From the NCBI RefSeq assembly GCF_003151135.1, contig NZ_QEQK01000003.1:1-64000 (forward strand): a stretch of DNA of 64,000 nt. The letters run 5' to 3'. Positions 47,952 to 61,546 of the stretch are shown one piece after another. The notes below the pieces were generated by a model, which had not been told where the DNA came from, did not search any database, and saw only the letters and a list, made by a program, of their open reading frames with translations. The position numbers and the translations under genes are program-made. Numbering within the stretch: the stretch's first letter is position 1; each line of letters starts with the position of its first letter. This DNA comes from Abyssibacter profundi (GTDB lineage Bacteria > Pseudomonadota > Gammaproteobacteria > Nevskiales > OUC007).

Positions 47952-49436
47952 CTATCCGCCGCTGGCCAGTGGCTGCGACAGAATCCAGAGCCCGCCGATC
48001 GTCAGGGCGATCATCAGCAACAGCATGGGCAGCTGGCTGATGGCGGCCTGGCGGCGCGACGGAAAGTACAGCAAAGCGACGCGATGGGCCAGGTACACGC
48101 TGATCACATGGCCCAGCACGATGAGCACCACCTGCACATGCCACACCGTTCCGGGATTGGGAATGATGGTCCGTTGCAACCAGTCGGCGGTGCCGAACAG
48201 GTCCCAGCCGTGACCGAAGGGGTCGGACATCAACGGCAGAATCTTCACGCCCTGGGTTTGGAGCAGGGTGTAGTAGTGCGTGAAGTGGTAGGCCAGGGCA
48301 ATCGGGAGCAGGGTGGGGGCAAAGGCCAGGGCCAGCGTTCGCGTGTTGTGGCCCGAGCGAGTCAGGCGCCGGGTGAGGGCAATGACGGCGAGGTAAACCA
48401 CCAGATAAAGCCAGGGCGAGGCGAGTAGCCAGACGCTGCGCCAGACCCGGTCGATTTGCTGCATCTGCGGGAAAGCCGCCAGCGGGTTCGTGCCAACCCA
48501 GTGCTTAAGCCCGGCGTTGTACAGATCGGCCCAAAGCCAGCGGCGCCAGGCCAGCGTGTCGCTCAGCCCGTCAAACGCCGTCGACGACAGCATGAACAGA
48601 ATAAAGACCAGCACCGACAGGCTTTCGGCCGGACGCTGGGCGACCGCCAGCATGGGCCAGTAGAGCCGCAGCCCGCCCGGTCGATCCGGGTCAGGCTGCA
48701 GCGGGGCTAGCCGGGCAACCTGTCGGAAGAACACGGCGAAGACGTCGGCCTGGCGAAACCAGGCTTGCCGACCGAATAACAGGCAGCCGCCCAGCGTCAG
48801 GGCGGTATACACCAGCAACACCTCGGCCAGTGCTTGCGGCGTGTGGCGGGCATTGAGCTCGATCCAGATGAACGCCATGTACTGCGCGACGGCAGGCCAG
48901 TGTCCCAGCCATGCGGGGTAGCGCAGCCAGGGGGACGGTGCACGGTCCGCGCGCAGCACGGCGATTGCGGCCACACCGAGATCAGTCAGGCTCCGCCAGG
49001 GGTTGATCCAGGCATAAAGGTTGCCGGTGAGTGCCACCACGTAGGTCAACCCCAGCACAAAGACAATCCAGAATGCGGTGAGGTTGAAATTGCCGTAGGG
49101 GCTGTTGACGCCCCAGAGCCCGGTGGCGATGCACAGCAGCATCAGCCCCAGCGCAATGGCCTGTGCTGATCGGTGGGTCAGGCGCAGCAGGGCACGGGTT
49201 CGCGAACCCGCCGGTGCCCAGGCCAGATAGGCCGGCGCTTGGGTGGCGCGTGCGCTGGTGAGTGCGACGGCCACCATGACAAACGAGGCGAGCAGCGCCC
49301 CGGTTGCACCCCAGGCGTACAGCCAGAAGGGCACGGGCAGGTTGTAGACCTGGCCGAAGGAATGCGCGAGCGCCGCGCTGGGGCAGACCCAGAACAGCCA
49401 GAAGCCGCCGAGGCGGGCGAACCAGGTGGAGGTCAC
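47952..49436 (-). CDS. Polytopic membrane protein (of the kind often annotated fenitrothion hydrolase)
   Basis: A 494-residue protein with a signal-like start and about 11-12 hydrophobic helices. The first exported segment AHSFGQVYNLPVPFWLYAWG and the late HFTHYYTLLQTQG...DPFGHGWDLFG region match, from memory, a family of membrane proteins named after one report of fenitrothion hydrolase; that function is doubtful. Several conserved histidines (HFTHYY, HVQVVLIVLGHV) could bind heme or metal. It overlaps the upstream cupredoxin-like gene by 4 nt, so the two are translationally coupled and probably function together, perhaps in copper handling or electron transfer. Confidence 0.65.
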   Translation of the reverse strand: MTSTWFARLGGFWLFWVCPSAALAHSFGQVYNLPVPFWLYAWGATGALLASFVMVAVALTSARATQAPAYLAWAPAGSRTRALLRLTHRSAQAIALGLMLLCIATGLWGVNSPYGNFNLTAFWIVFVLGLTYVVALTGNLYAWINPWRSLTDLGVAAIAVLRADRAPSPWLRYPAWLGHWPAVAQYMAFIWIELNARHTPQALAEVLLVYTALTLGGCLLFGRQAWFRQADVFAVFFRQVARLAPLQPDPDRPGGLRLYWPMLAVAQRPAESLSVLVFILFMLSSTAFDGLSDTLAWRRWLWADLYNAGLKHWVGTNPLAAFPQMQQIDRVWRSVWLLASPWLYLVVYLAVIALTRRLTRSGHNTRTLALAFAPTLLPIALAYHFTHYYTLLQTQGVKILPLMSDPFGHGWDLFGTADWLQRTIIPNPGTVWHVQVVLIVLGHVISVYLAHRVALLYFPSRRQAAISQLPMLLLMIALTIGGLWILSQPLASGG

Positions 49437-49924
49437 TGCGTGGCCGGGTAGACCTCGATCACGCCCAGCGCGCCATGGGCACCGCTGCCATGCAGCTCGT
49501 GTTCGAAGCGCCCGGCATGCTCGGCTTTGAGTGTCACCCGCGTCGGGGCCTGCGCACGGAGCTCAGCGTGGATGTCATAGCCATGCAGGTGCCATTCGCC
49601 CTCAGAATCGCTGGCCAGTTCGAGCGTGATCTCCGCGCCCTGCGCGACCTGGACGGTTGCAGGGCCTTCCACCAGATGCCCGTCGCGGATGACGAGCCGG
49701 ATCGGTGTGGCGGCCTGGCGCTGGGCTGGCGGCTCCTCTGTGCTCGGCGGTGCCGGCGGTTCGGGTGATCGGGCCGCGGGGGGCGGGGCGGCGGCGCCAC
49801 CGGTCTGGGGGCCCGCCGGTGCCGAGGGTCTGAGCAGCACAAACAATGCGGACAACAGGACGACGCCGATGATGGCCAGGGCCAGAGATAGTTTGTTCAC
49901 GGAACTCCTCGAGTCATTGTTCAC
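49433..49924 (-). CDS. Membrane-anchored cupredoxin-like protein
   Basis: A 163-residue protein: transmembrane anchor (residues 12-31), a Pro-rich linker (APPPAARSPEPPAPP) and a C-terminal domain starting near residue 73 with cupredoxin character. Its motifs EWHLHGYDI and FEHELHGSGAH give several histidines, but no cysteine, so it is not a classical type 1 copper site; EfeO-like and similar cupredoxin-like proteins share the HLHGYD motif. First gene of the pair with the polytopic membrane protein. Metal binding is inferred. Confidence 0.65.
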   Translation of the reverse strand: MNNDSRSSVNKLSLALAIIGVVLLSALFVLLRPSAPAGPQTGGAAAPPPAARSPEPPAPPSTEEPPAQRQAATPIRLVIRDGHLVEGPATVQVAQGAEITLELASDSEGEWHLHGYDIHAELRAQAPTRVTLKAEHAGRFEHELHGSGAHGALGVIEVYPATQ

Positions 49925-50066
49925 GCGGTCTTCGCCGCGCTGAGGGCATATTTACGATAGGCGATTCAATGCCGGCCGCGATACTGTCGCGACCGATAAC
50001 GACAACACCGGCCGTCGGCGGCGCGGGATTCTCCGTGCGAATAGGTTGGTTTAGCGAGGAGAGATC

Positions 50067-52745
50067 ATGCGTGCATCGACCTGTATAGTGAGCCTGTCGG
50101 CGATCTGGCTGATGGCCGCCTGCAGCGGCTCGGAATCATTGGACGACAGCGCCGGCACGCCGGGCGGTCCGGACCCGGTGCTTGCGGCCTGTGCCGACGG
50201 GCAGGACAACGATGCCGATGGCCTGGTGGATTTTCCCGATGATCCCGGCTGTGACAGTGCCGACGACGACAGCGAGGACAACCTCGCATCTGCCGACACC
50301 AAGACCCGTTATGCCATGGCCAGCCAATGCTGGGCGCTGCGCTCGGTGGCCACGGGCCAGTATGTCGCGCGCAGCGGTAGCGATTACAGCGCCTCGGCCG
50401 ACGCGATCGCAGAGGCCGAACCGCTGTTCTTCAAGGCCACAGCTCTGGGTAAGTACGTGTTGTATGACAGCCAGCGCGAACTGATCACGGTCGACACGCC
50501 ACCCGCGTTGACGCAAACCGCCAGCGCAGACGCCACCGATGCTGCCGAGTTCACGGTATTGGGTGTCGGTGACACGACGGCCTATCCGGCAACACCGGCG
50601 TATCACACCGAACCCACACCGGAGTACGTGGCCGAATACCACGGCTTTGAAGACCCCAACCTGCTGTTCGAGGCCTTCACTCTGGCATCGGACACCACCG
50701 CCACCCGGCTGGGCGTCGATGGTGACGGACAGCTGGTCGCTGTGGCCGCCGCCGATGAGGATGCCCAGGCCTTTGCGATCGAACCGACCACGGGCTGTGC
50801 GGCTTACCCGGAGGCCTCGAGCAACTTCACGGGCACGCCGTTTTCCGGCACCCAGCCCGACGGTACGGTTCTGGGTCACGCCGATGTCCATGTCCATATC
50901 AGCGCCAGCGAGTTTCTCGGTGGCGCGCAATGGGGGCGCCCGTACCACAAGTTCGGCGTGGAGCATGCGCTGGGCAATTGCTCGGTGGATCATGGAGAAA
51001 CCGGTCAGATGGACTTGGTCGGCGGATTGTTTACCAATGATCCGGATGGCCATGCGACGGATGGCTATCCGACATTCTCCGAGTGGCCGGCACGCGGCAT
51101 GCTGACCCACGAGGCGATTTACTGGAAATGGCTGGAACGCTCCTGGGCGGCCGGCCTGCGTGTGGCTGTCAACGATCTGGTCGACAACGAAACGCTATGT
51201 GAATTGCAGCGTAATGCCGCTGGCAATGTCACCGAAGACTGCAATTCCATGAACAATGCGGGTCGTCAGGCCGGCACGATGTACGGCATGCAGGACTACA
51301 TCGACGCCCAGTATGGCGGGCGCGGCGAGGGCTTCTTCCAGATCGTCCACGACCCGGCCGAGGCGCGTGCGGTGATCGAAGACGGCAAGATGGCCGTGGT
51401 GCTGGGCATCGAGATCTCCAACCTCTTTGACTGCAAGCTGACGTACCAGCCCACACGGACCCAGACGCCCGAAGTCGAGGACGGGTCCGGCGGCATCGAA
51501 AACAGCTATGGCTGCACCATCGAGGAAGGCCAGCCCAATTCCATTCTGACGCAGATGGAGCGCATTCACGCCTGGGGTGTGCGCCAGATCATCTCGATCC
51601 ACGAATTCGACAACGCCTTTGGCGGCAACGGTATTTTCGACGGGCTGGTGCTCAATGTCGGTAACCGTGAGAACTCCGGCGGTATCCCCTCGGGTGACGT
51701 GGCCGAGATCACCGGCCTGCTCAGTGGCAGTCTCGACCCGGCGCAGGTCACCGAGCTGGCGGAGAACCTGCAAACTACAGAAACGCCGACCGGTGAGTTC
51801 TGGACCACCTACGACTGCCCCATCGAGGGCGAGACGGAAAACTTCACGGGGTACTTGTGGAGTAGCACCGGTGGCAGCACCCAGAGCTTCCTGAGTCCGC
51901 CGCTGTGCGTGCCGACCGGTCAGGGTGGCCGCTCGGGTGGGACCACCCCCTGCTATCCGGCCGACGTTCGACAGTGCAACGCCCGCTGGATGACCCCGGC
52001 CGGTCTCTACACCTACGGCAAGATGATGGAGCTGGGCTTCATCTTCGACTTCGACCACATGGAAATGGGCATGAAAACCCAGGCCCTGGAACTGGCCGAG
52101 GCCCAGACGCCGGTGTATCCCCTGGTGTCCACACACGGCACGTTCGGCGGGACGACCATTGACCAGGCGGCGCGCGTGCTGCGTGGCGGCGGACATCTGT
52201 ACCCCAGCAATGGCTCCAGCCGAGGATTCCGGTCCGATATGGACGAAACCTTCGCGATTTATCAGGCTGCGGTGGCCGACCTACCCGCCGAGTCCCGCCC
52301 GTTGTTCGGGTTCGGGTACGGCACGGATACCAATGGGCTGTCCTCCCAGACAGGACCCCGCGGCAATTTCGAGCCAGAGGACGCCGTGGTGTATCCCTAC
52401 ACGCTGTACACCGGTGAGGTGTTTGACGAGTTGCCCGAGTTCGCCGCGGTTGACCCGGTGGTGTTCCACCAGCCCAGCTCGGTGGACGCCGATGGCGTGG
52501 TCCAGCGGACCTGGCACGAGGATATTGACGGCAACGCCCACCACGGGATGCTCAGCGGATTCGTCGAGGAAATTCGCCTTGAGGGCACGCCTGAGCAGAT
52601 GCGGCACCTGTTCAATTCCGCCGAGGTTTACCTCCAGACCTGGGAGCGCACCGAGGCGTCCAAAGCCGCCATCCAGGCCAACGGTCTGCAAGTGCCGGAT
52701 GGCGTGCTGCGGCCTGCACCGCCCGAGGGCGAGATCGCGCCCTAG
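50067..52745 (+). CDS. Large lipoprotein with a membrane-dipeptidase-like (M19) metal hydrolase domain
   Basis: An 892-residue exported lipoprotein, lipobox LMAAC with the cysteine at 19. Then an Asp-rich calcium-binding-type motif (DGQDNDADGLVDFPDDPGCD), a beta-rich domain to about residue 260, and a hydrolase domain. Potential metal ligands appear in the order of renal-dipeptidase-like M19 enzymes: DVHVHI (about 273), GIEISN (about 447), FDFDHM (about 661), STHGTF (about 689) and GYGTDTNG (about 750). This order is my own reading, not a database match. Substrate unknown. It is divergent from the cupredoxin pair, with 142 bp between them. Confidence 0.6.
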   Translation: MRASTCIVSLSAIWLMAACSGSESLDDSAGTPGGPDPVLAACADGQDNDADGLVDFPDDPGCDSADDDSEDNLASADTKTRYAMASQCWALRSVATGQYVARSGSDYSASADAIAEAEPLFFKATALGKYVLYDSQRELITVDTPPALTQTASADATDAAEFTVLGVGDTTAYPATPAYHTEPTPEYVAEYHGFEDPNLLFEAFTLASDTTATRLGVDGDGQLVAVAAADEDAQAFAIEPTTGCAAYPEASSNFTGTPFSGTQPDGTVLGHADVHVHISASEFLGGAQWGRPYHKFGVEHALGNCSVDHGETGQMDLVGGLFTNDPDGHATDGYPTFSEWPARGMLTHEAIYWKWLERSWAAGLRVAVNDLVDNETLCELQRNAAGNVTEDCNSMNNAGRQAGTMYGMQDYIDAQYGGRGEGFFQIVHDPAEARAVIEDGKMAVVLGIEISNLFDCKLTYQPTRTQTPEVEDGSGGIENSYGCTIEEGQPNSILTQMERIHAWGVRQIISIHEFDNAFGGNGIFDGLVLNVGNRENSGGIPSGDVAEITGLLSGSLDPAQVTELAENLQTTETPTGEFWTTYDCPIEGETENFTGYLWSSTGGSTQSFLSPPLCVPTGQGGRSGGTTPCYPADVRQCNARWMTPAGLYTYGKMMELGFIFDFDHMEMGMKTQALELAEAQTPVYPLVSTHGTFGGTTIDQAARVLRGGGHLYPSNGSSRGFRSDMDETFAIYQAAVADLPAESRPLFGFGYGTDTNGLSSQTGPRGNFEPEDAVVYPYTLYTGEVFDELPEFAAVDPVVFHQPSSVDADGVVQRTWHEDIDGNAHHGMLSGFVEEIRLEGTPEQMRHLFNSAEVYLQTWERTEASKAAIQANGLQVPDGVLRPAPPEGEIAP

Positions 52746-53536: not shown

Positions 53537-54322
53537 TTAGGCGGCGGCCGGGTTCGGGTCATCCTGAGAGGGCTGACGGGATGCACATTCAACCCGGTTG
53601 CGGCCACGGTGCTTGGCTGCGTACATCGCTGCGTCGGCGGCCTCGTATAGCGTTTGTGCGAGGTCGTCCGACCAAGTGGAGCGTGCCGCGCAGCCCAGCG
53701 AGGCCGTCACATGATGACGCTGGTCATCGACCTCGCAGTACACGGTGTCTGCGATCACCCGGCGCAGGCGCTCGGCCGCCTGACAGGCCTCGTCTTCCGT
53801 GGCGCCGTGCATGAGCAGGGCGAATTCCTCCCCGCCAATGCGTGCGGCCACCTCGTCACGACGCGCCACGCGCTGGACGACGGTGCCAAGGCGGCGAAGC
53901 ACGGTGTCTCCGACGCGATGCCCGAACTGGTCGTTCACGCGCTTGAAGTGGTCGAGATCAAAGATGATCAGCGCAAGGGGTTCACCATCGCGCTGGAGCC
54001 GCCGTGCCGCCTTGGCCAGCGCCGCCTGGAAATACTCGGCGTTGTAGAGCCCGGTCAGCCCATCGTGGAGTCCGTGCTCGCGCTCTTCTTCTTCGCGTCG
54101 GCCCAGAGTCCAGCCAAAGGCCGCGAATACGCTGCAGGTGCCGAAGAACATGTAGGCAAACAGTCCCGGTTGATCGGCCAGCGCGGACAAGGGGGATACC
54201 CCGTCAATGGCGAGAATGAGCAGCCAGCCCAGCGGGGCACCCGTGCCGAGACAGGCGCCCTGCAACGCACGGGTCAGGGCCAGTCGCCGTTGGAGCCAGT
54301 GCTCCATCTGTTCCACGTGCAT
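53537..54322 (-). CDS. Diguanylate cyclase (GGDEF protein, membrane-bound)
   Basis: A 261-residue protein making cyclic di-GMP. Two N-terminal transmembrane helices (about 22-42 and 50-70), a short charged linker, then a GGDEF domain: [19 protein letters not shown] and the active-site signature GGEEF. The RxxD inhibitory site preceding GGEEF is not obvious ([14 protein letters not shown]). It is divergent from the cbb3 operon, 153 bp away, so the two may share the control region with the Anr box. Confidence 0.9.
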
Positions 54323-54400
54323 GTCGGGGTGTCCTTGGGTCGTGACTCGGCGGCGTTGGCCGGGGTCGAGTCAGTGTCTGCGCAATCCACCGGCAGGTTG

Positions 54401-54414
54401 TTGATCCATGTCAA
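54401..54414 (+). promoter_or_regulatory. Anr/FNR box upstream of ccoN
   Basis: TTGATCCATGTCAA matches 9 of the 10 specified bases of TTGATnnnnATCAA. Its centre is about 68 bp upstream of the ccoN ATG, suitable for a class II activated promoter (box at -41.5) with a start near 54449. cbb3 operons are well known Anr/FNR targets, induced at low oxygen. Confidence 0.85.
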
Positions 54415-54475
54415 CACGGTGCGTGGGCCACTGCAACAGACTGGCCGGCGTCTGCTTCCCCTTCGAGACCCGACC

Positions 54476-55915
54476 ATGACCGACTCAGCGCAATCGACCG
54501 TCGTCTACAACGACAAGGTCATTCAGCAGTTCGCGGTGATGACGCTTGTCTGGGGCATTGTTGGCATGACGGTGGGTGTGTTGATCGCCGCCCAGCTCAT
54601 GTGGCCTGCCCTGAACTTCGACGTCCCGTGGCTCACCTATAGCCGGCTGCGGCCGTTGCACACCAATGCGGTGATTTTCGCCTTTGGTGGCTCCGCCCTG
54701 TTCACGACCTCGTACTGGGTGGTGCAGCGGACCTGCGGGGCGCGGCTGATCAGCGACAAGCTGGCGGCGTTCACATTCTGGGGCTGGCAGGCGGTGATCG
54801 TCGCAGCCGCCATCACCCTGCCGATGGGCCTGACCCAGGGCAAGGAATACGCCGAGCTCGAATGGCCCATCGATCTGCTGATCGCCGTGGTCTGGGTGGT
54901 TTACGCCATTGTGTTCTTCGGCACGATCATGAAGCGCCGGGTCCAACATATTTACGTGGCCAACTGGTTTTACGGGGCGTTCATCCTGACGGTGGCCGTA
55001 CTTCACATCGTCAATAACATCTCGATTCCCTATGGCCCGATGCGTTCGTACTCGGCCTATCCGGGCGCCGTGGATGCCATGGTGCAGTGGTGGTACGGCC
55101 ACAACGCCGTCGGCTTTTTCCTGACCGCCGGATTCCTGGGGATGATGTATTACTTCGTGCCCAAGCAGGCGGGCCGGCCGATCTACTCGTATCGGCTGTC
55201 CATCGTCCACTTCTGGGCGCTGATCTCGATTTACATGTGGGCCGGCCCGCATCATCTGCACTACACCGCGATTCCGGACTGGGTGCAGTCGCTGGGCATG
55301 GTGTTCTCACTGATTCTGCTGGCGCCTAGCTGGGGCGGCATGATCAACGGGATCATGACGCTGTCCGGGGCGTGGCATAAGCTGCGTGAGGATCCGATCA
55401 TCAAGTTCCTGATTGTGTCTCTGTCGTTCTACGGCATGAGCACCTTCGAAGGGCCGATGATGTCGATCAAGACGGTTAACGCCCTGTCGCATTACACGGA
55501 TTGGACCATCGGCCATGTCCACTCGGGCGCCCTTGGCTGGGTGGCGATGATCTCCATCGGATCCCTGTACGTGCTGATCCCGCGTCTGGTCGGCAAGACC
55601 GAGATGCACAGCGTGCCGGCCATCAATCTGCACTTCTGGCTGTCGACCATCGGCACGGTGCTGTACATCGCTGCGATGTGGGTGGCCGGTGTCATGCAGG
55701 GGCTGATGTGGCGGGCGGTCGATGAAGACGGCGCGCTGGTCTACACCTTCATCGAGTCCCTGAAGGCGACGTATCCCTTCTACTTCATCCGCCTGCTCGG
55801 GGGCGTGGTGTTCCTGTCGGGCATGTTCGTCATGGCCTGGAATACCTGGAAGACCATGCGCACGCCGGTCGAGCAGCCGGTCGCCGAAACGGCCACCGTG
55901 CCGGCGGGAGCCTGA
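54476..55915 (+). CDS. ccoN: cbb3-type cytochrome c oxidase subunit I
   Basis: Catalytic subunit of the high-affinity terminal oxidase; 479 residues, about 12 membrane helices. Heme and copper ligands: RPLHTNAV for the low-spin heme, and [18 protein letters not shown] and GHVHSGALG for the active site and copper; [14 protein letters not shown] is a cbb3 hallmark. No copper-A site, as expected for cbb3. First gene of the operon; the ATG at 54476 gives [16 protein letters not shown]. Confidence 0.97.
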
Positions 55916-55918
55916 GTC

Positions 55919-56530
55919 ATGAATCACGAAAAGATTGAAAAGCACATCGGCCTGATGGCGATCCTGATCGCCGTGGTGATCAGCGTCGGCGGCATCATCG
56001 AGATCGTCCCGCTGATGATCAGCAAATCGGCCACCCAGCCGGCCCCGGGTATCGAGCCGCTGGGTCCTTTGGAGGTGGCCGGACGTGACGTGTACATCCG
56101 CGAGGGTTGCTACAACTGCCATTCGCAGCAGGTGCGCTACCTGGCCGAGGAAGTGCTGCGCTACGGCCCCGCCGCCAAGGCCGGGGAGTCGGTGTACGAG
56201 CACCCCTTCCAGTGGGGCAGCAAGCGCACAGGGCCGGATCTGTCGCGGGTTGGCGGGCGTTACAACGACGAGTGGCATGAGCTGCACCTGATGGACCCGC
56301 GTGCTGTCGTGCCCGAGTCGAACATGCCTGGTTATCCCTGGCTGATCCGGCAGCGGGTCTCGCCCGACGAGGTCCGCCGGATGATGCAGGCCCTGCGGAC
56401 GGCCGGCGTGCCCTACACCGACGCCGATTTCGCCGCCATCGCCGAGGCGGTGACCGGCCAGACCCAGCTCGATGCCTTGGTGGCCTATCTGCAGTCGCTC
56501 AAGGCCAGTGATCAGGAGGTGACGCAATGA
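55919..56530 (+). CDS. ccoO: cbb3-type cytochrome c oxidase subunit II (monoheme cytochrome c)
   Basis: A 203-residue membrane-anchored cytochrome c: one N-terminal helix (residues 10-30) and a single heme motif in EGCYNCHSQQVRYLAEEVLRYG, with the methionine ligand likely in VVPESNMPGYPWL. It transfers electrons from CcoP to CcoN. It begins 3 bp after ccoN and overlaps ccoQ by 4 nt. Confidence 0.96.
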   Translation: MNHEKIEKHIGLMAILIAVVISVGGIIEIVPLMISKSATQPAPGIEPLGPLEVAGRDVYIREGCYNCHSQQVRYLAEEVLRYGPAAKAGESVYEHPFQWGSKRTGPDLSRVGGRYNDEWHELHLMDPRAVVPESNMPGYPWLIRQRVSPDEVRRMMQALRTAGVPYTDADFAAIAEAVTGQTQLDALVAYLQSLKASDQEVTQ

Positions 56531-56688
56531 CCAGCGGAATCATCACCGTGCTCGCCATGCTCGGCTTCGCTGCCGTGGTGTGGTGGGCCTATGGACCGAA
56601 CAGCCGCGAGCGGTTCAAGCAGGCCGAGCAACTGCCTCTGCAGGACGAGGCCCCGGCCACCCAGGGACAGGTGGAGGTGCAATCATGA
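56527..56688 (+). CDS. ccoQ: cbb3-type oxidase subunit IV
   Basis: A 53-residue single-pass protein that stabilises the oxidase: membrane helix in TVLAMLGFAAVVWWAYGPNS followed by an acidic/Pro-rich cytosolic tail, the usual CcoQ/FixQ layout. The ATG overlaps the ccoO stop (ATGA), and the stop overlaps the ccoP start. Recognised mainly by position and topology. Confidence 0.85.
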   Translation: MTSGIITVLAMLGFAAVVWWAYGPNSRERFKQAEQLPLQDEAPATQGQVEVQS

Positions 56689-57569
56689 CGGCGGCGACAG
56701 GCTGGCTGGTCGCCGGCGTTACGTTGCTCAATATCGTGGCCTGTCTCTGGCTGATCTGGGCCACGAGCCGCAACAACCCCAACGATGTGGCCGAGGGTGA
56801 AATCAAGGCCGATGTCTGGGATGACGACCTGCGCGAGCTCAACAATCCGCTGCCGCGGTGGTGGCTGAACCTGTTCATCATCACCATCGTATTTGCTGTC
56901 GGATACATGGTGGTCTTTCCCGGTCTCGGGCATTACACCGGCGTGCTGGACTGGTCCACGCGTGGTGAAATGGAGCAACAGCTGGCCGAGCTCACCGAGC
57001 GTCGCACCCGCAAACTCGATGCGCTGACCGCCGCGCCCATCGCCGATATCGCCACCAATCCGGATGCCCGCAGGCTGGGTCAGGAGCTGTTCGGCAGCTA
57101 CTGCGCCGGCTGCCACGGCGCGAATGCCGAAGGGGCTCGGGGCTATCCCAACCTCGCTGATGACGATTGGCTCTACGGCGGTGACCCCGAAGCCGTGGTG
57201 GCCTCGATCACCCGCGGGCGGCAGGGTGTGATGACGCCATTTTTATCGCAGCTGTCCGAGGCGCAGGTGGCCCAGCTTATCGCCCTGGTGGGGGATTGGC
57301 CCGAGGGGGCGCCGCGTGGCCAGCAGGCAGAGGGGCTGTCCGTCTTCGCCCAACGCTGTGCGGCCTGTCACGGTCAGGACGGACGGGGTAACCAGGCGCT
57401 GGGTGCACCCGATCTCACCGACGACACCTGGCTATATGGCGGTGACGACGCCAGCATCCGCGAGACCATTCTGTTCGGTCGCCAGGGCAAGATGCCCGCG
57501 CATGCCGACCTGCTTAGTGAGCAGGAGATCAAGCTGTTGGCCGGCTACGTGCTGGGACTGGCGCCGTGA
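56685..57569 (+). CDS. ccoP: cbb3-type cytochrome c oxidase subunit III (diheme cytochrome c)
   Basis: A 294-residue diheme cytochrome c receiving electrons from soluble cytochromes. N-terminal helices (4-24 and about 55-75), then two class I heme domains: CAGCHGANAEG (near residue 140) and CAACHGQDGRG (near residue 225), each with an HG and a methionine ligand (VMTPF, KMPAH). The stop overlaps the GTG start of the next gene. Confidence 0.97.
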   Translation: MTAATGWLVAGVTLLNIVACLWLIWATSRNNPNDVAEGEIKADVWDDDLRELNNPLPRWWLNLFIITIVFAVGYMVVFPGLGHYTGVLDWSTRGEMEQQLAELTERRTRKLDALTAAPIADIATNPDARRLGQELFGSYCAGCHGANAEGARGYPNLADDDWLYGGDPEAVVASITRGRQGVMTPFLSQLSEAQVAQLIALVGDWPEGAPRGQQAEGLSVFAQRCAACHGQDGRGNQALGAPDLTDDTWLYGGDDASIRETILFGRQGKMPAHADLLSEQEIKLLAGYVLGLAP

Positions 57570-57859
57570 GTGCTCCCCAGGCCGACCGGGAGGCGTTCTA
57601 CACCCCGCAACCGCCGCTGTCACCGCGTGTTCGCGCGATGGCAGCGGTGGGCTGGTCCTCCTTTCTGGGTGCGGTCGTGGCCACGCCGGTGTATCTCTAC
57701 GCCAGCGCCATGCCCGGTCAGGGCCTGGGGCAACTGTCGGTGGTGTTCCTCGCGGCCTGGGCGGCCGCCGTCGTGCCGGCCGGCATGAGCTGGTTGCTGT
57801 CGGGGCGTGCGCCCCGGCGTGCTCCGTTGCATCGATCTGAAGACTTTACCGACGCATGA
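57566..57859 (+). CDS. Unrecognised two-helix membrane protein between ccoP and ccoG
   Basis: A 97-residue protein from a GTG start overlapping the ccoP stop by 4 nt, ending in a 4-nt overlap with ccoG. It has two hydrophobic segments (about residues 27-48 and 57-79) and Pro-rich ends (YTPQPPLSPRV; GRAPRRAPLH). I do not recognise a family. Its place inside the cbb3 operon and the tight overlaps suggest a role in oxidase assembly or stability, by inference. Confidence 0.6.
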   Translation: MSAPQADREAFYTPQPPLSPRVRAMAAVGWSSFLGAVVATPVYLYASAMPGQGLGQLSVVFLAAWAAAVVPAGMSWLLSGRAPRRAPLHRSEDFTDA

Positions 57860-59211
57860 GCCAGACACCACAAAGCCTGTACGAGTCCGCACCGCGCATT
57901 CATCCACGCGCGGTCTGGGGCCGCTTCGCCCAGTGGCGGGTGATTGCGATGCTCGCGCTGCTGGGGCTGTTCTATGTCGTGCCGTGGATTCGCGTCGGTG
58001 GCGAGCACATCGTGTTGTTCGACCTGGCCGCGCGTCGGTTCCATGTCTTCGGCCTGACACTGGTCCCACAGGACCTGTTCCTGCTGACCTGGCTGCTGAT
58101 TCTGGCCGCCATGACCCTGTTCCTGTTCACCACGCTGGCCGGACGTCTCTGGTGTGGCTATGCCTGTCCGCAAACGGTGTGGACCGAGGCCTTCCTGTGG
58201 ATCGAGCATCACATTGAGGGCGACCGTCACAAGCGCATGAAATTGGATCGTGCGCCCTGGACATCGCAGAAGATCCTGCGGCGGGGCGGCAAGCACCTGG
58301 CCTGGATGCTCTTCGCATTGTTCACCGGCGTCAGTTTTGTCGGCTACTTCGTGCCGGTGGAGCAGGTGGCCGCCAATCTGGTGACGCTGGAGCTGGGAGG
58401 CTGGCCGCTGTTCTGGACACTGTTTTATGCCTTTGCGACCTGGGGCAACGCCGGCTTTATGCGTGAGCAGGTTTGCAAGTACATGTGTCCCTACGCCCGG
58501 TTCCAAAGCGCGATGTTCGACAAGGACACGCTAATCATTGCCTACGACGAGCAGCGGGGCGAGCCGCGCAAGTCCAAGGCACGCAAGCTCTCGGATGTGC
58601 TGGCGGGCGACTGTGTGGATGACCAGATGTGCGTGCAGGTCTGTCCCACCGGGATCGATATACGTGACGGCCTGCAGTACGAGTGCATTGCCTGCGCAGC
58701 CTGTATCGATGCCTGCAACCATGTGATGGATGCCGTGGGCAAGCCACGCAACCTGATTCGCTACACCACCGTGAATCACGACGCTGGCGGCCGTTACCGG
58801 CTGCTGCGCGGGCGTTCGATCGGCTATGGCGTGATCTGGGCCGGACTGCTGCTGGGCTTTGTCGCGTTGGTCTTGCTGCGCAGTTCGGTGGAACTGGATG
58901 TCATCCGTGACCGCAAGAATCTGTATCGCGTCATCGATACCCAGCACATCGAAAACGTCTACACGCTCAAGGTCACCAACAAACAGGACGGCCCGGTGCG
59001 TTACCGCATCAGCGTGACCGGCGAGCAGTCCCTCGCCACGATCAGCCCGGACGCCATCGAACTGGCCCCTGGGGAAACCCGCGGTCTGGTGGTGGGTGTT
59101 CGCGCACCGCTGCTTGGCTATCGGGTCGAGACCATGACCATCGAGCTTCAGGACGCGACCGGCGAGGTCGTGGCCGATCGGAGCACCAACTTTTTCAGGC
59201 CGAAACAATGA
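57856..59211 (+). CDS. ccoG: cbb3 oxidase maturation ferredoxin-like protein
   Basis: A 451-residue inner-membrane protein with about five helices and two Fe-S cluster regions: CGYACPQTVWTE and CKYMCPYARFQ, followed by C..DQMCVQVCPTGIDIR and CIACAACIDACN. A C-terminal periplasmic Ig-like domain ends the protein. CcoG reduces copper for insertion into CcoN. Its stop overlaps the start of the 39-residue gene. Confidence 0.95.
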   Translation: MSQTPQSLYESAPRIHPRAVWGRFAQWRVIAMLALLGLFYVVPWIRVGGEHIVLFDLAARRFHVFGLTLVPQDLFLLTWLLILAAMTLFLFTTLAGRLWCGYACPQTVWTEAFLWIEHHIEGDRHKRMKLDRAPWTSQKILRRGGKHLAWMLFALFTGVSFVGYFVPVEQVAANLVTLELGGWPLFWTLFYAFATWGNAGFMREQVCKYMCPYARFQSAMFDKDTLIIAYDEQRGEPRKSKARKLSDVLAGDCVDDQMCVQVCPTGIDIRDGLQYECIACAACIDACNHVMDAVGKPRNLIRYTTVNHDAGGRYRLLRGRSIGYGVIWAGLLLGFVALVLLRSSVELDVIRDRKNLYRVIDTQHIENVYTLKVTNKQDGPVRYRISVTGEQSLATISPDAIELAPGETRGLVVGVRAPLLGYRVETMTIELQDATGEVVADRSTNFFRPKQ

Positions 59212-59327
59212 AACGCATACCGCCTGCCGGCTGGGTGATTATTGGCGTGCTGGTGTTCACGTTGGTGGCATCGACCTATCTGGTGGTCACGGCGACGACC
59301 ACCGGCTTCTCCGCCCCGACCCCATGA
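59208..59327 (+). CDS. 39-residue single-pass membrane peptide between ccoG and ccoI
   Basis: MKRIPPAGWVIIGVLVFTLV starts the peptide, one membrane helix with a short tail ending FSAPTP. It is too short for ordinary searches and lies where ccoH (FixH) usually lies, overlapping ccoG and ccoI by 4 nt each. It is not a normal CcoH, which is much longer and has a periplasmic domain; it could be a shrunken CcoH or an unrelated helper. The overlaps make translation likely. Confidence 0.6.
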   Translation: MKRIPPAGWVIIGVLVFTLVASTYLVVTATTTGFSAPTP

Positions 59328-61546
59328 CCCCGGTCTCGACAGCCACAGTGGAGCCGCCGGTTGCCACCGACCTGCCAGGCGTGCCGGTGGCCGGTGGTCG
59401 GCGCTCCGTCATTCTTGCTGTTCCTGGCATGCACTGCGGGGCTTGTGTCCGCCGCATCGAGGCGGCGCTTGGCGTCCATCGGGTGGTGATGCGACCGTCC
59501 CTGGCGACCCGGACGGTTGAGCTGGAATTCGACCCCAGGCGCAGCCCACTGACGGCGCTGGTCGATGCCCTGGAGCAAGCCGGGTTTCCAGGTCGGCCGG
59601 TGGCGGCCCCTGCCGCGGCCGATCTCAGCCGGCAAAGCTATGCTCGCAGCGTTCGACGGGTCGTGCTGGCCGCATTCCTGACCATGCAGGTCATGATGCT
59701 GGCCTGGCCTTCTTACCTGTCCGGCGGGACGCTGGAACCCGGCGTGGATCGGCTGTTGACCTTCGCGCAGTGGCTGCTGGCCACACCGGTGGTGTTCTAC
59801 GCCGGCTGGCCGTTTCTATCCGGTGCTTGGCGGGATGTCCGCAACGCCACGCCGTCCATGGATTTGCCGGTGGGCCTGGCCCTGATCACGGCCTATGGCT
59901 TCAGCGCCTGGCACACGGTGAGTGGCGCCGGCACCGTGTACTTCGACTCGGCCGTCATGTTTGTGCTGTTTCTGTCGCTGGGCCGTCTGCTGGAGGCGCG
60001 GGGCCGGCTGCAGGCGGCCGAGCGGGTGCGGCATGTGCTGGCCGACCAGCCCACGATGGCGCGGGTTCGAGACGGGGACGGCTGGACAGAACAGGCTGTC
60101 GCCACCGTTGTTCCCGGCATGCAGGTGCAGGTCAGGCCGGGCGAAACCGTGCCGGTGGACGGACGCCTGGTGGGCCGCGGTGCACACCTCAGCCAGGCCG
60201 TGCTGACCGGCGAGCCGGCTCCGCGCTGGTTTGACGTCGATGCCAGCGTGCTGGCCGGGTCTGTGCTGGTCGATGAGGCCCCCGTGACCTTGACGGCAAC
60301 CGCTGCCGGAACCGACACCACCCTGGCCGCCATCGGGCGGGCCATGCACCGGGCCTTGTCGGAGCGGCCGCCCGCCCAGGTGCTGGCCGATCGCATTGCC
60401 GGTGTGTTCATTCTGGCCGTACTCGTGGGGGCTGCCGCGGCCGGCTGGGCCTGGTGGTCTGCCGGGCCGGACCGCGCCGTGGAAATCATGCTGGCCGTGC
60501 TGGTGGCCAGCTGCCCCTGTGCATTGTCACTGGCCGTGCCTGCGGTGTTGGCCGCAGCCATCGGCCGGCTCTCGCGGCTGGGCGTGCTGCCAGCCCGGGC
60601 GCGTGCCTTGCTGGCGGCTGGCCGCATCGACACCGTGGTGTTCGACAAGACCGGAACGCTCACCGAGGACGGGCTGGTCCGGCAGGTCGTCCGGGTGCGG
60701 CCCGGCTGCCATGCCGAACAGGCGCTGCAGCTCGCCGCGGCCGTTGAGCGAGCCAGCACCCACCCCATTGCCCGGGCATTCGACGACATCGAAGCCGCGC
60801 CAGCCCATGCAGCTTGCGTCGATCGCGGGTCGGTGTCCGGCGAGGTGGCGGGGTTGCAGGTCGTGCTGAGCACCGCCGGGTCGGAGGATTTGAGGCAGCT
60901 CGATGTCGAGCCCAGTCCGGAGCTGACCTGGATCGCCCTGCGCGTGGATGGCGTGCTCGAGGCGGTGTTTGGTCTGGCCGCGACGCGGCGTTCCGATGCC
61001 CTGCAAACCGTCCAGCAGCTCCAGGCCATGGGCTGTCATGTCCATCTGCTCAGTGGCGATACGCCGGCCGCCGCAAACCATTTCGCGGCCTCACTGGGCA
61101 TGGACGCAGCCACCGGAGGCTGTACCCCTGCCGACAAGCTCGCCTACCTGCAGTCGCTGCGGGCACGCGGCCACCGCGTTGCCATGGTTGGTGATGGCAT
61201 TAACGACTCGCCAACGCTCGCGGCCGCCGATGTGGGTATTGCGCTGGGCTCGGGGACCGGTTTGGCGCAATCCAGTGCCGATGCCATCTTGATGGACGGG
61301 CGGCTGGGTGGCGTTGTTGACCTGCTGCGCGCAGCCCGCACGGTGCGTCGCCGTATCACCCAGAACGTTGTCTGGGCGCTGGGTTATAACGCGGCGGTTT
61401 ATCCGCTGGCTGCGCTGGGATATCTACCTCCCTGGGGTGCGGCTATCGGCATGGCGACCAGCTCGGCCTGGGTCGTGGCCAACGCGATTCGTCGCGTCCC
61501 TGACCGGACACGGCCGGCCACCCACCCAAGCGCGGTGGCGGCATGA
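59324..61546 (+). CDS. ccoI: Copper-translocating P-type ATPase for cbb3 assembly
   Basis: A 740-residue P1B-type ATPase. The N-terminal metal-binding domain has GMHCGACVRRIEAAL; then eight membrane helices with SCPCALSLAVP (CPC metal site), the phosphorylation site DKTGTLTEDG and the hinge GDGINDSPTLAAADVGIALGSGT. CcoI supplies copper to the CcoN active site and exports copper to the periplasm. Overlaps neighbours by 4 nt. General CopA is the alternative, but the operon position decides. Confidence 0.95.
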   Translation: MTPVSTATVEPPVATDLPGVPVAGGRRSVILAVPGMHCGACVRRIEAALGVHRVVMRPSLATRTVELEFDPRRSPLTALVDALEQAGFPGRPVAAPAAADLSRQSYARSVRRVVLAAFLTMQVMMLAWPSYLSGGTLEPGVDRLLTFAQWLLATPVVFYAGWPFLSGAWRDVRNATPSMDLPVGLALITAYGFSAWHTVSGAGTVYFDSAVMFVLFLSLGRLLEARGRLQAAERVRHVLADQPTMARVRDGDGWTEQAVATVVPGMQVQVRPGETVPVDGRLVGRGAHLSQAVLTGEPAPRWFDVDASVLAGSVLVDEAPVTLTATAAGTDTTLAAIGRAMHRALSERPPAQVLADRIAGVFILAVLVGAAAAGWAWWSAGPDRAVEIMLAVLVASCPCALSLAVPAVLAAAIGRLSRLGVLPARARALLAAGRIDTVVFDKTGTLTEDGLVRQVVRVRPGCHAEQALQLAAAVERASTHPIARAFDDIEAAPAHAACVDRGSVSGEVAGLQVVLSTAGSEDLRQLDVEPSPELTWIALRVDGVLEAVFGLAATRRSDALQTVQQLQAMGCHVHLLSGDTPAAANHFAASLGMDAATGGCTPADKLAYLQSLRARGHRVAMVGDGINDSPTLAAADVGIALGSGTGLAQSSADAILMDGRLGGVVDLLRAARTVRRRITQNVVWALGYNAAVYPLAALGYLPPWGAAIGMATSSAWVVANAIRRVPDRTRPATHPSAVAA

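Follow-up and report, generated by a model that had tools for sequence, protein, structure and literature searches.

An overlapping cupredoxin and polytopic membrane protein gene pair as a putative envelope metal module linked to an M19-like lipoprotein in Abyssibacter profundi

N-terminal histidines chelate metals naturally, as in LPMOs and CopC (PMC10952591) and in the anglerases, where domains that start with such a His and are joined to a permease have a Kd for Cu of ~60-75 nM (PMC12537917). In CopC-CopD and YcnI-YcnJ a periplasmic β-sandwich metal binder is combined with a polytopic inner-membrane protein, in the anglerases Ang-1 and Ang-2 an Ig-like domain is fused to a HupE/UreJ-2 permease, and in P19-associated iron uptake (FtrABCD, FetMP) a cupredoxin-like periplasmic protein such as FtrB is found together with a permease. 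The stretch of Abyssibacter profundi DNA analysed here (64,000 nucleotides, referred to as the window) holds two overlapping genes (Table 1). An initial annotation had described them as coupled genes for a polytopic membrane protein and an anchored cupredoxin-like protein, and had proposed a metal or electron path across the membrane.

The two reading frames share four nucleotides, as the initial annotation had stated, and this overlap likely couples their translation. Comparison with relatives suggests that translation of the 163-aa protein may really begin at a GTG eight codons further in (VNKLSL...). For comparison, 80 related loci from other genomes were drawn from a set holding one genome for each of 84,980 species. 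The conserved pairing on which the initial proposal depended was found, with a cupredoxin match in 37 of the 80 loci, directly upstream of the membrane gene in 34, and no such match in the remaining 43. The exact 4-nt NTGA overlap occurs in 14 of the 34 upstream cupredoxins, and most others lie within a few bases. Pairing spans Betaproteobacteria, Actinobacteria and CPR bacteria, and the pair is also present in Variovorax, Mycobacterium and Pseudonocardia. On two Candidatus Daviesbacteria (CPR) contigs (L128 and L162) the complete pair was observed, which is unusual for such reduced genomes. The partner cupredoxin is scattered over many branches of the membrane protein tree, with 16 changes of which seven are forced by supported branches, a distribution that would be expected if the pair is ancient and was lost or gained repeatedly. 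In haloarchaea, the place of the cupredoxin is taken by a short zinc-finger-like protein that carries a TM helix at its C-terminus and whose gene overlaps the membrane gene from upstream. The gene pair is conserved and coupled beyond chance.

Table 1. Coordinates and residues of the gene pair, its neighbours and related features; positions without a prefix are those of the window
Feature	Position	Strand	Remarks
Uncharacterised polytopic membrane protein	47952..49436	-	494 aa, GTG start; predicted cleavable signal peptide, then ~10 TM helices
Invariant or nearly invariant residues of the membrane protein			H387, H443, H451, M475, Q468, E193, D289
Stop/start overlap of cupredoxin and membrane protein genes	49433..49436	-	4 nt
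Membrane-anchored, cysteine-less cupredoxin-like protein	49433..49924	-	163 aa, GTG start; N-terminal TM helix, then Pro/Ala-rich linker, then cupredoxin domain
Candidate metal ligands of the cupredoxin			H112, H114 (HLHGYD), E143, H145 (ELH), E110
Divergent intergenic region, M19-like gene and pair	49925..50066		142 bp
Predicted lipoprotein, distant relative of peptidase M19 (membrane dipeptidase)	50067..52745	+	892 aa, divergent neighbour
Acidic double-disulfide repeat of the M19-like lipoprotein	50182..50300		CADGQDNDADGLVDFPDDPGCDSADD
cbb3 oxidase region	53654..61546		ccoN, O, P, then ccoG and heavy-metal P-type ATPase (ccoI-like)
Second membrane protein copy	G000:C13:12371-13786		same genome
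M19-like gene adjacent to second copy	C13:13907-16033		same genome
Haloarchaeal zinc-finger-like protein	L022:7621-7878
Haloarchaeal zinc-finger-like protein	L084:6316-6582
Haloarchaeal zinc-finger-like protein	L213:5615-5878
Alphaproteobacterial membrane protein relative	L025:7941-9344

The membrane partner had been placed outside the named systems by the initial annotation, and no named family was matched by it in Pfam, NCBIfam or PHROGs. Its AlphaFold2 model (pLDDT 90.4, pTM 0.89) contains ~10 long TM helices, in agreement with the polytopic architecture proposed beforehand. Sequence and profile searches of the PDB returned nothing significant, and the best Foldseek match of the model to a PDB fold had an E of 0.22, where absence from the match lists does not exclude a family. 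The best VIA alignment (Z 6.3, 136 residues, 10 Å) lies within the background for helical proteins. Homology to CopD (PF05425) was rejected given no Pfam match in 79 members and an hhalign probability of 0.2 in comparison with ten proteins from relatives that carry the CopD domain, and homology to HupE/UreJ_2 (PF13795) was rejected likewise (no Pfam match; hhalign probability 0.1). The family nevertheless spans CPR bacteria to haloarchaea, without an entry in these family databases or a recognised fold. Members occur in 23 of 41 related genomes and, in a phylum-wide sample of 299 genomes, in 44; plasmids of haloarchaea, mycobacteria, rhodococci, rhizobia and roseobacters carry the family as well. 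A second copy in the same genome, without a cupredoxin match, has its own adjacent M19-like gene. Alphaproteobacterial relatives (L025, L080, L082 and L024) are found within catabolic clusters for nicotinate/6-hydroxynicotinate or of the tannase type. The name 'fenitrothion hydrolase' for some actinobacterial relatives found no support in the available papers or annotations and is not treated as evidence.

The conserved histidines of the membrane protein are H387, H443, H451 and the terminal H25. Across 20 diverse members from bacteria and archaea, H387, H443 and M475 are invariant, and H451 and Q468 are each retained in 19. The helices of the model and the positive-inside rule suggest that both mature ends lie outside, with H387, H443, H451, M475 and Q468 placed within the membrane. 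Two features extend beyond the initial annotation, a third conserved gene, that of the M19-like lipoprotein, and a predicted N-terminal histidine on the mature membrane protein. In nearly every proteobacterial member, a signal peptide ending in A-x-A is followed directly by H[SG]FG..Y.LPVP. Residue -1 before this His is A, G or S in 72 of 73 automatically parsed sequences, the exception (L086) being mis-parsed, and His at +1 occurs in only four of 133 control proteins from these loci that also start like a signal peptide. The mature protein is therefore predicted to start with H25 after signal-peptide cleavage. A predicted signal peptide with N-terminal His is also present in a haloarchaeal member (L083). 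Actinobacterial members keep 'AHG' without a signal peptide, and so their His is not N-terminal. For a histidine-brace layout, in which the N-terminal His acts with a second His, the second candidate would be H433, a position close to where its helix ends on the periplasmic side, which is His in 66 of the 79 members and in only eight of the 20 diverse members.

The smaller protein contains the motifs HLHGYD and HELHGSGAH and no cysteine, all as first read from its translation. Its AlphaFold2 model (pLDDT 88.5) has a single N-terminal helix (residues 11-30) and a Greek-key β-sandwich of the cupredoxin type (residues 75-159; Cupredoxin_1 clan), consistent with the anchored cupredoxin-like protein of the initial annotation. 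Pfam Cupredoxin_1 (PF13473) is matched at E 1.4e-4, below the curated cut-off, and is matched by 14 of the 37 relatives. A profile of these 37 relatives matches nitrosocyanin (E 6e-6), the CuA subunit of ba3 oxidase and copper nitrite reductases. Nitrosocyanin is also first in VIA-align (Z 12.2, 85 residues, 1.8 Å), followed by copper-bound Cupredoxin_1, FtrB, the CupA chaperone and CuA domains, with EfeO also listed, and Foldseek returned 212 matches at E<=1e-3 with FtrB at the top. Conservation among the relatives is highest at H114 (37/37), E143 (36/37) and H112 (35/37), then H145 (32/37) and E110 (27/37). The C-terminal-loop Cys ligand of type 1, CuA and nitrosocyanin sites is absent from the window protein, and a Cys occupies the copper-ligand position in one of 37 relatives (L094), just before ELH. 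From the alignment and established knowledge, the ELH His is taken to correspond to nitrosocyanin His98, with Cys95 missing. Because this His is kept and Cys95 is missing, the protein is best described as a cupredoxin without the electron-transfer Cys, whose His/Glu cluster could hold a type-2-like metal. A literature search for Cys-less nitrosocyanin-like cupredoxins found nothing relevant.

The best explanation, held tentatively and at somewhat less than an even chance, is that the pair forms an envelope metal capture or transport module, most likely for copper. The N-terminal His of the membrane protein would capture the metal, the anchored cupredoxin would capture or exchange it, and the His/Met cluster of the last three long helices (H387, H443, H451 and M475) would conduct it across or along the inner membrane. 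Movement might be in the direction of uptake or of delivery. The metal may serve envelope metalloenzymes, among which the M19-like lipoprotein and copper respiratory enzymes are the conceivable recipients in this lineage. This reading is favoured by the cupredoxin fold with its copper-protein relatives, the conserved pairing, the predicted N-terminal His, the conserved His and Met of the membrane protein, the metal genes near relatives and the Cu affinity of the anglerase domains. Against it stand the variation at H112 and H145, the loci without a cupredoxin match, the haloarchaeal zinc-finger-like substitute, the actinobacterial His that is not N-terminal, and the gammaproteobacterial neighbours described below.

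The pair is strongly linked to the M19-like lipoprotein, a predicted secreted metallohydrolase. Its gene adjoins the membrane gene in 51 of the 80 loci, and all 23 related genomes with the membrane protein carry M19-like genes, with four of the 41 having the M19-like gene only and 14 neither (Fisher p 9e-8). The divergent arrangement is the same in two further loci (L086 and L087), and the intergenic region is a probable shared control region for the M19-like gene and the pair. No match to the window protein was found in Pfam, nor anything significant in PDB sequence and profile searches, but hhalign of the family against nine M19 membrane dipeptidases gave a probability of 96.9 (E 1.9e-10). 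Seven residues, H275, H277, E449, H512, H664, H690 and D754, do not vary among 31 sequences. From what is established for M19 peptidases, these are presumed to be the binuclear-site positions of M19, with metal and catalytic residues in the same order (HxD, E, H, H, H, D in M19); unlike M19, the first ligand pair is HxH and a large extra N-terminal region is present. An acidic double-disulfide repeat lies near the N-terminus and occurs in several copies in some relatives.

Given this association, the pair could instead serve to mature, metallate or anchor secreted hydrolases without transmembrane transport, loading or holding the M19-like lipoprotein here and LVIVD, FG-GAP or tannase-like proteins elsewhere. 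Besides the adjacency and co-occurrence, this agrees with two genomes (G009 and G018) in which the cupredoxin adjoins an M19-like gene on contigs without an adjoining membrane gene, the membrane genes lying elsewhere, and with Sagittula, where tannase-family genes abut the membrane gene. However, the secreted neighbours have folds unrelated to one another and change from clade to clade, LVIVD or FG-GAP/UnbV proteins taking the place of the M19-like gene in some, and they are absent from the haloarchaeal and mycobacterial loci examined. The 10-TM core also far exceeds the needs of an anchor, and this explanation is considered unlikely.

The genes near relatives bear on the identity of the metal. 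Metal-handling genes are found near eight of ten annotated haloarchaeal loci, a count made without a random control, and comprise heavy-metal P-type ATPase, P19-like, CDF, ZIP, COX15 and SCO genes. SCO-TlpA-CcdA genes also lie near membrane protein relatives, mycobacterial relatives adjoin either CuMMO pmoCAB-type monooxygenase genes or a multicopper oxidase and P-type ATPase, and a roseobacter relative adjoins a PCu(A)C gene. In gammaproteobacterial loci, including the window, the recurrent neighbours are M19-like or LVIVD/FG-GAP proteins and not copper genes. A CuMMO link in this lineage was considered and rejected; PmoB is present in three of the 41 related genomes but not in the genome studied here, to which the setting of the mycobacterial genes can thus not be extended. 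The cbb3 oxidase operon of the window, followed by ccoG and a gene for a ccoI-like ATPase, is 5-12 kb distant from the pair and the ATPase 9 kb; the nearness of the ATPase is probably incidental, and that of the oxidase operon may be so.

An improbable alternative is that the metal is iron, the cupredoxin acting like FtrB of FtrABCD/FetMP-type systems and the membrane protein being an unrelated iron permease. The top rank of FtrB in Foldseek and the presence of EfeO in the VIA list are in keeping with iron, as is the haloarchaeal membrane gene that adjoins proteins with a weak match to Pfam Iron_transport (P19). Against this, no FTR1-type permease was matched in Pfam and P19-like proteins do not recur beside the bacterial pairs. 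Copper is favoured over iron because the copper-specific SCO, CuMMO and PCuAC genes are also neighbours, and the metal is probably copper.

Of the path first proposed, the metal part is supported as plausible while the electron part fared poorly: transfer between quinone and cupredoxin through b-type haem bound by the membrane histidines would suit the invariant His on two adjacent long helices and the CuA-domain similarity of the partner, but it is very improbable because the type-1/CuA Cys of electron-transfer sites is absent and no cytochrome or haem family match or recurring redox partner was found.

Returning to an envelope metal module, a more specific form of it is doubtful, namely that the membrane protein represents a new metal permease family with its own N-terminal-His site, fed by a tethered Cys-less cupredoxin and supplying secreted metalloenzymes, or even a membrane copper enzyme with a layout reminiscent of particulate methane monooxygenase. 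A copper or iron permease of this kind would add one more design to those of CopCD and anglerase-HupE, and would offer a handle on metal supply to secreted enzymes and copper monooxygenases. An unnamed gene pair is in this way turned into a testable three-gene system.

When set against the described systems, the small protein has its best sequence-profile and structural relatives in nitrosocyanin and CuA-type cupredoxins, from which it differs in that the copper Cys is absent and an N-terminal TM anchor is present. The combination of a cupredoxin-like periplasmic protein with a permease recalls FtrB in P19-associated iron uptake, and P19-like genes do adjoin haloarchaeal members, but the membrane protein is not FTR1 and P19 is absent among the recurrent bacterial neighbours. 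With CopC-CopD and YcnI-YcnJ the pair shares the overall pairing of parts, and with CopC N-terminal histidine chemistry; here, however, the predicted N-terminal His is on the membrane protein and not on the soluble partner, and the membrane protein is without profile similarity to CopD. A search of 21 related genomes found CopC in only one, and none in the present genome. The anglerase permeases likewise have a signal peptide followed directly by a near-invariant His (PMC12537917), a feature predicted for the membrane protein, and join a polytopic membrane protein to a β-sandwich metal binder. Unlike the anglerases, the membrane part is unrelated to PF13795 by profile comparison, and the β-sandwich is a separate anchored cupredoxin instead of an Ig-like domain fused to the permease. 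While appearing to belong to neither, the pair would resemble CopC-CopD and anglerase-HupE in its working, through a putative movement of metal.
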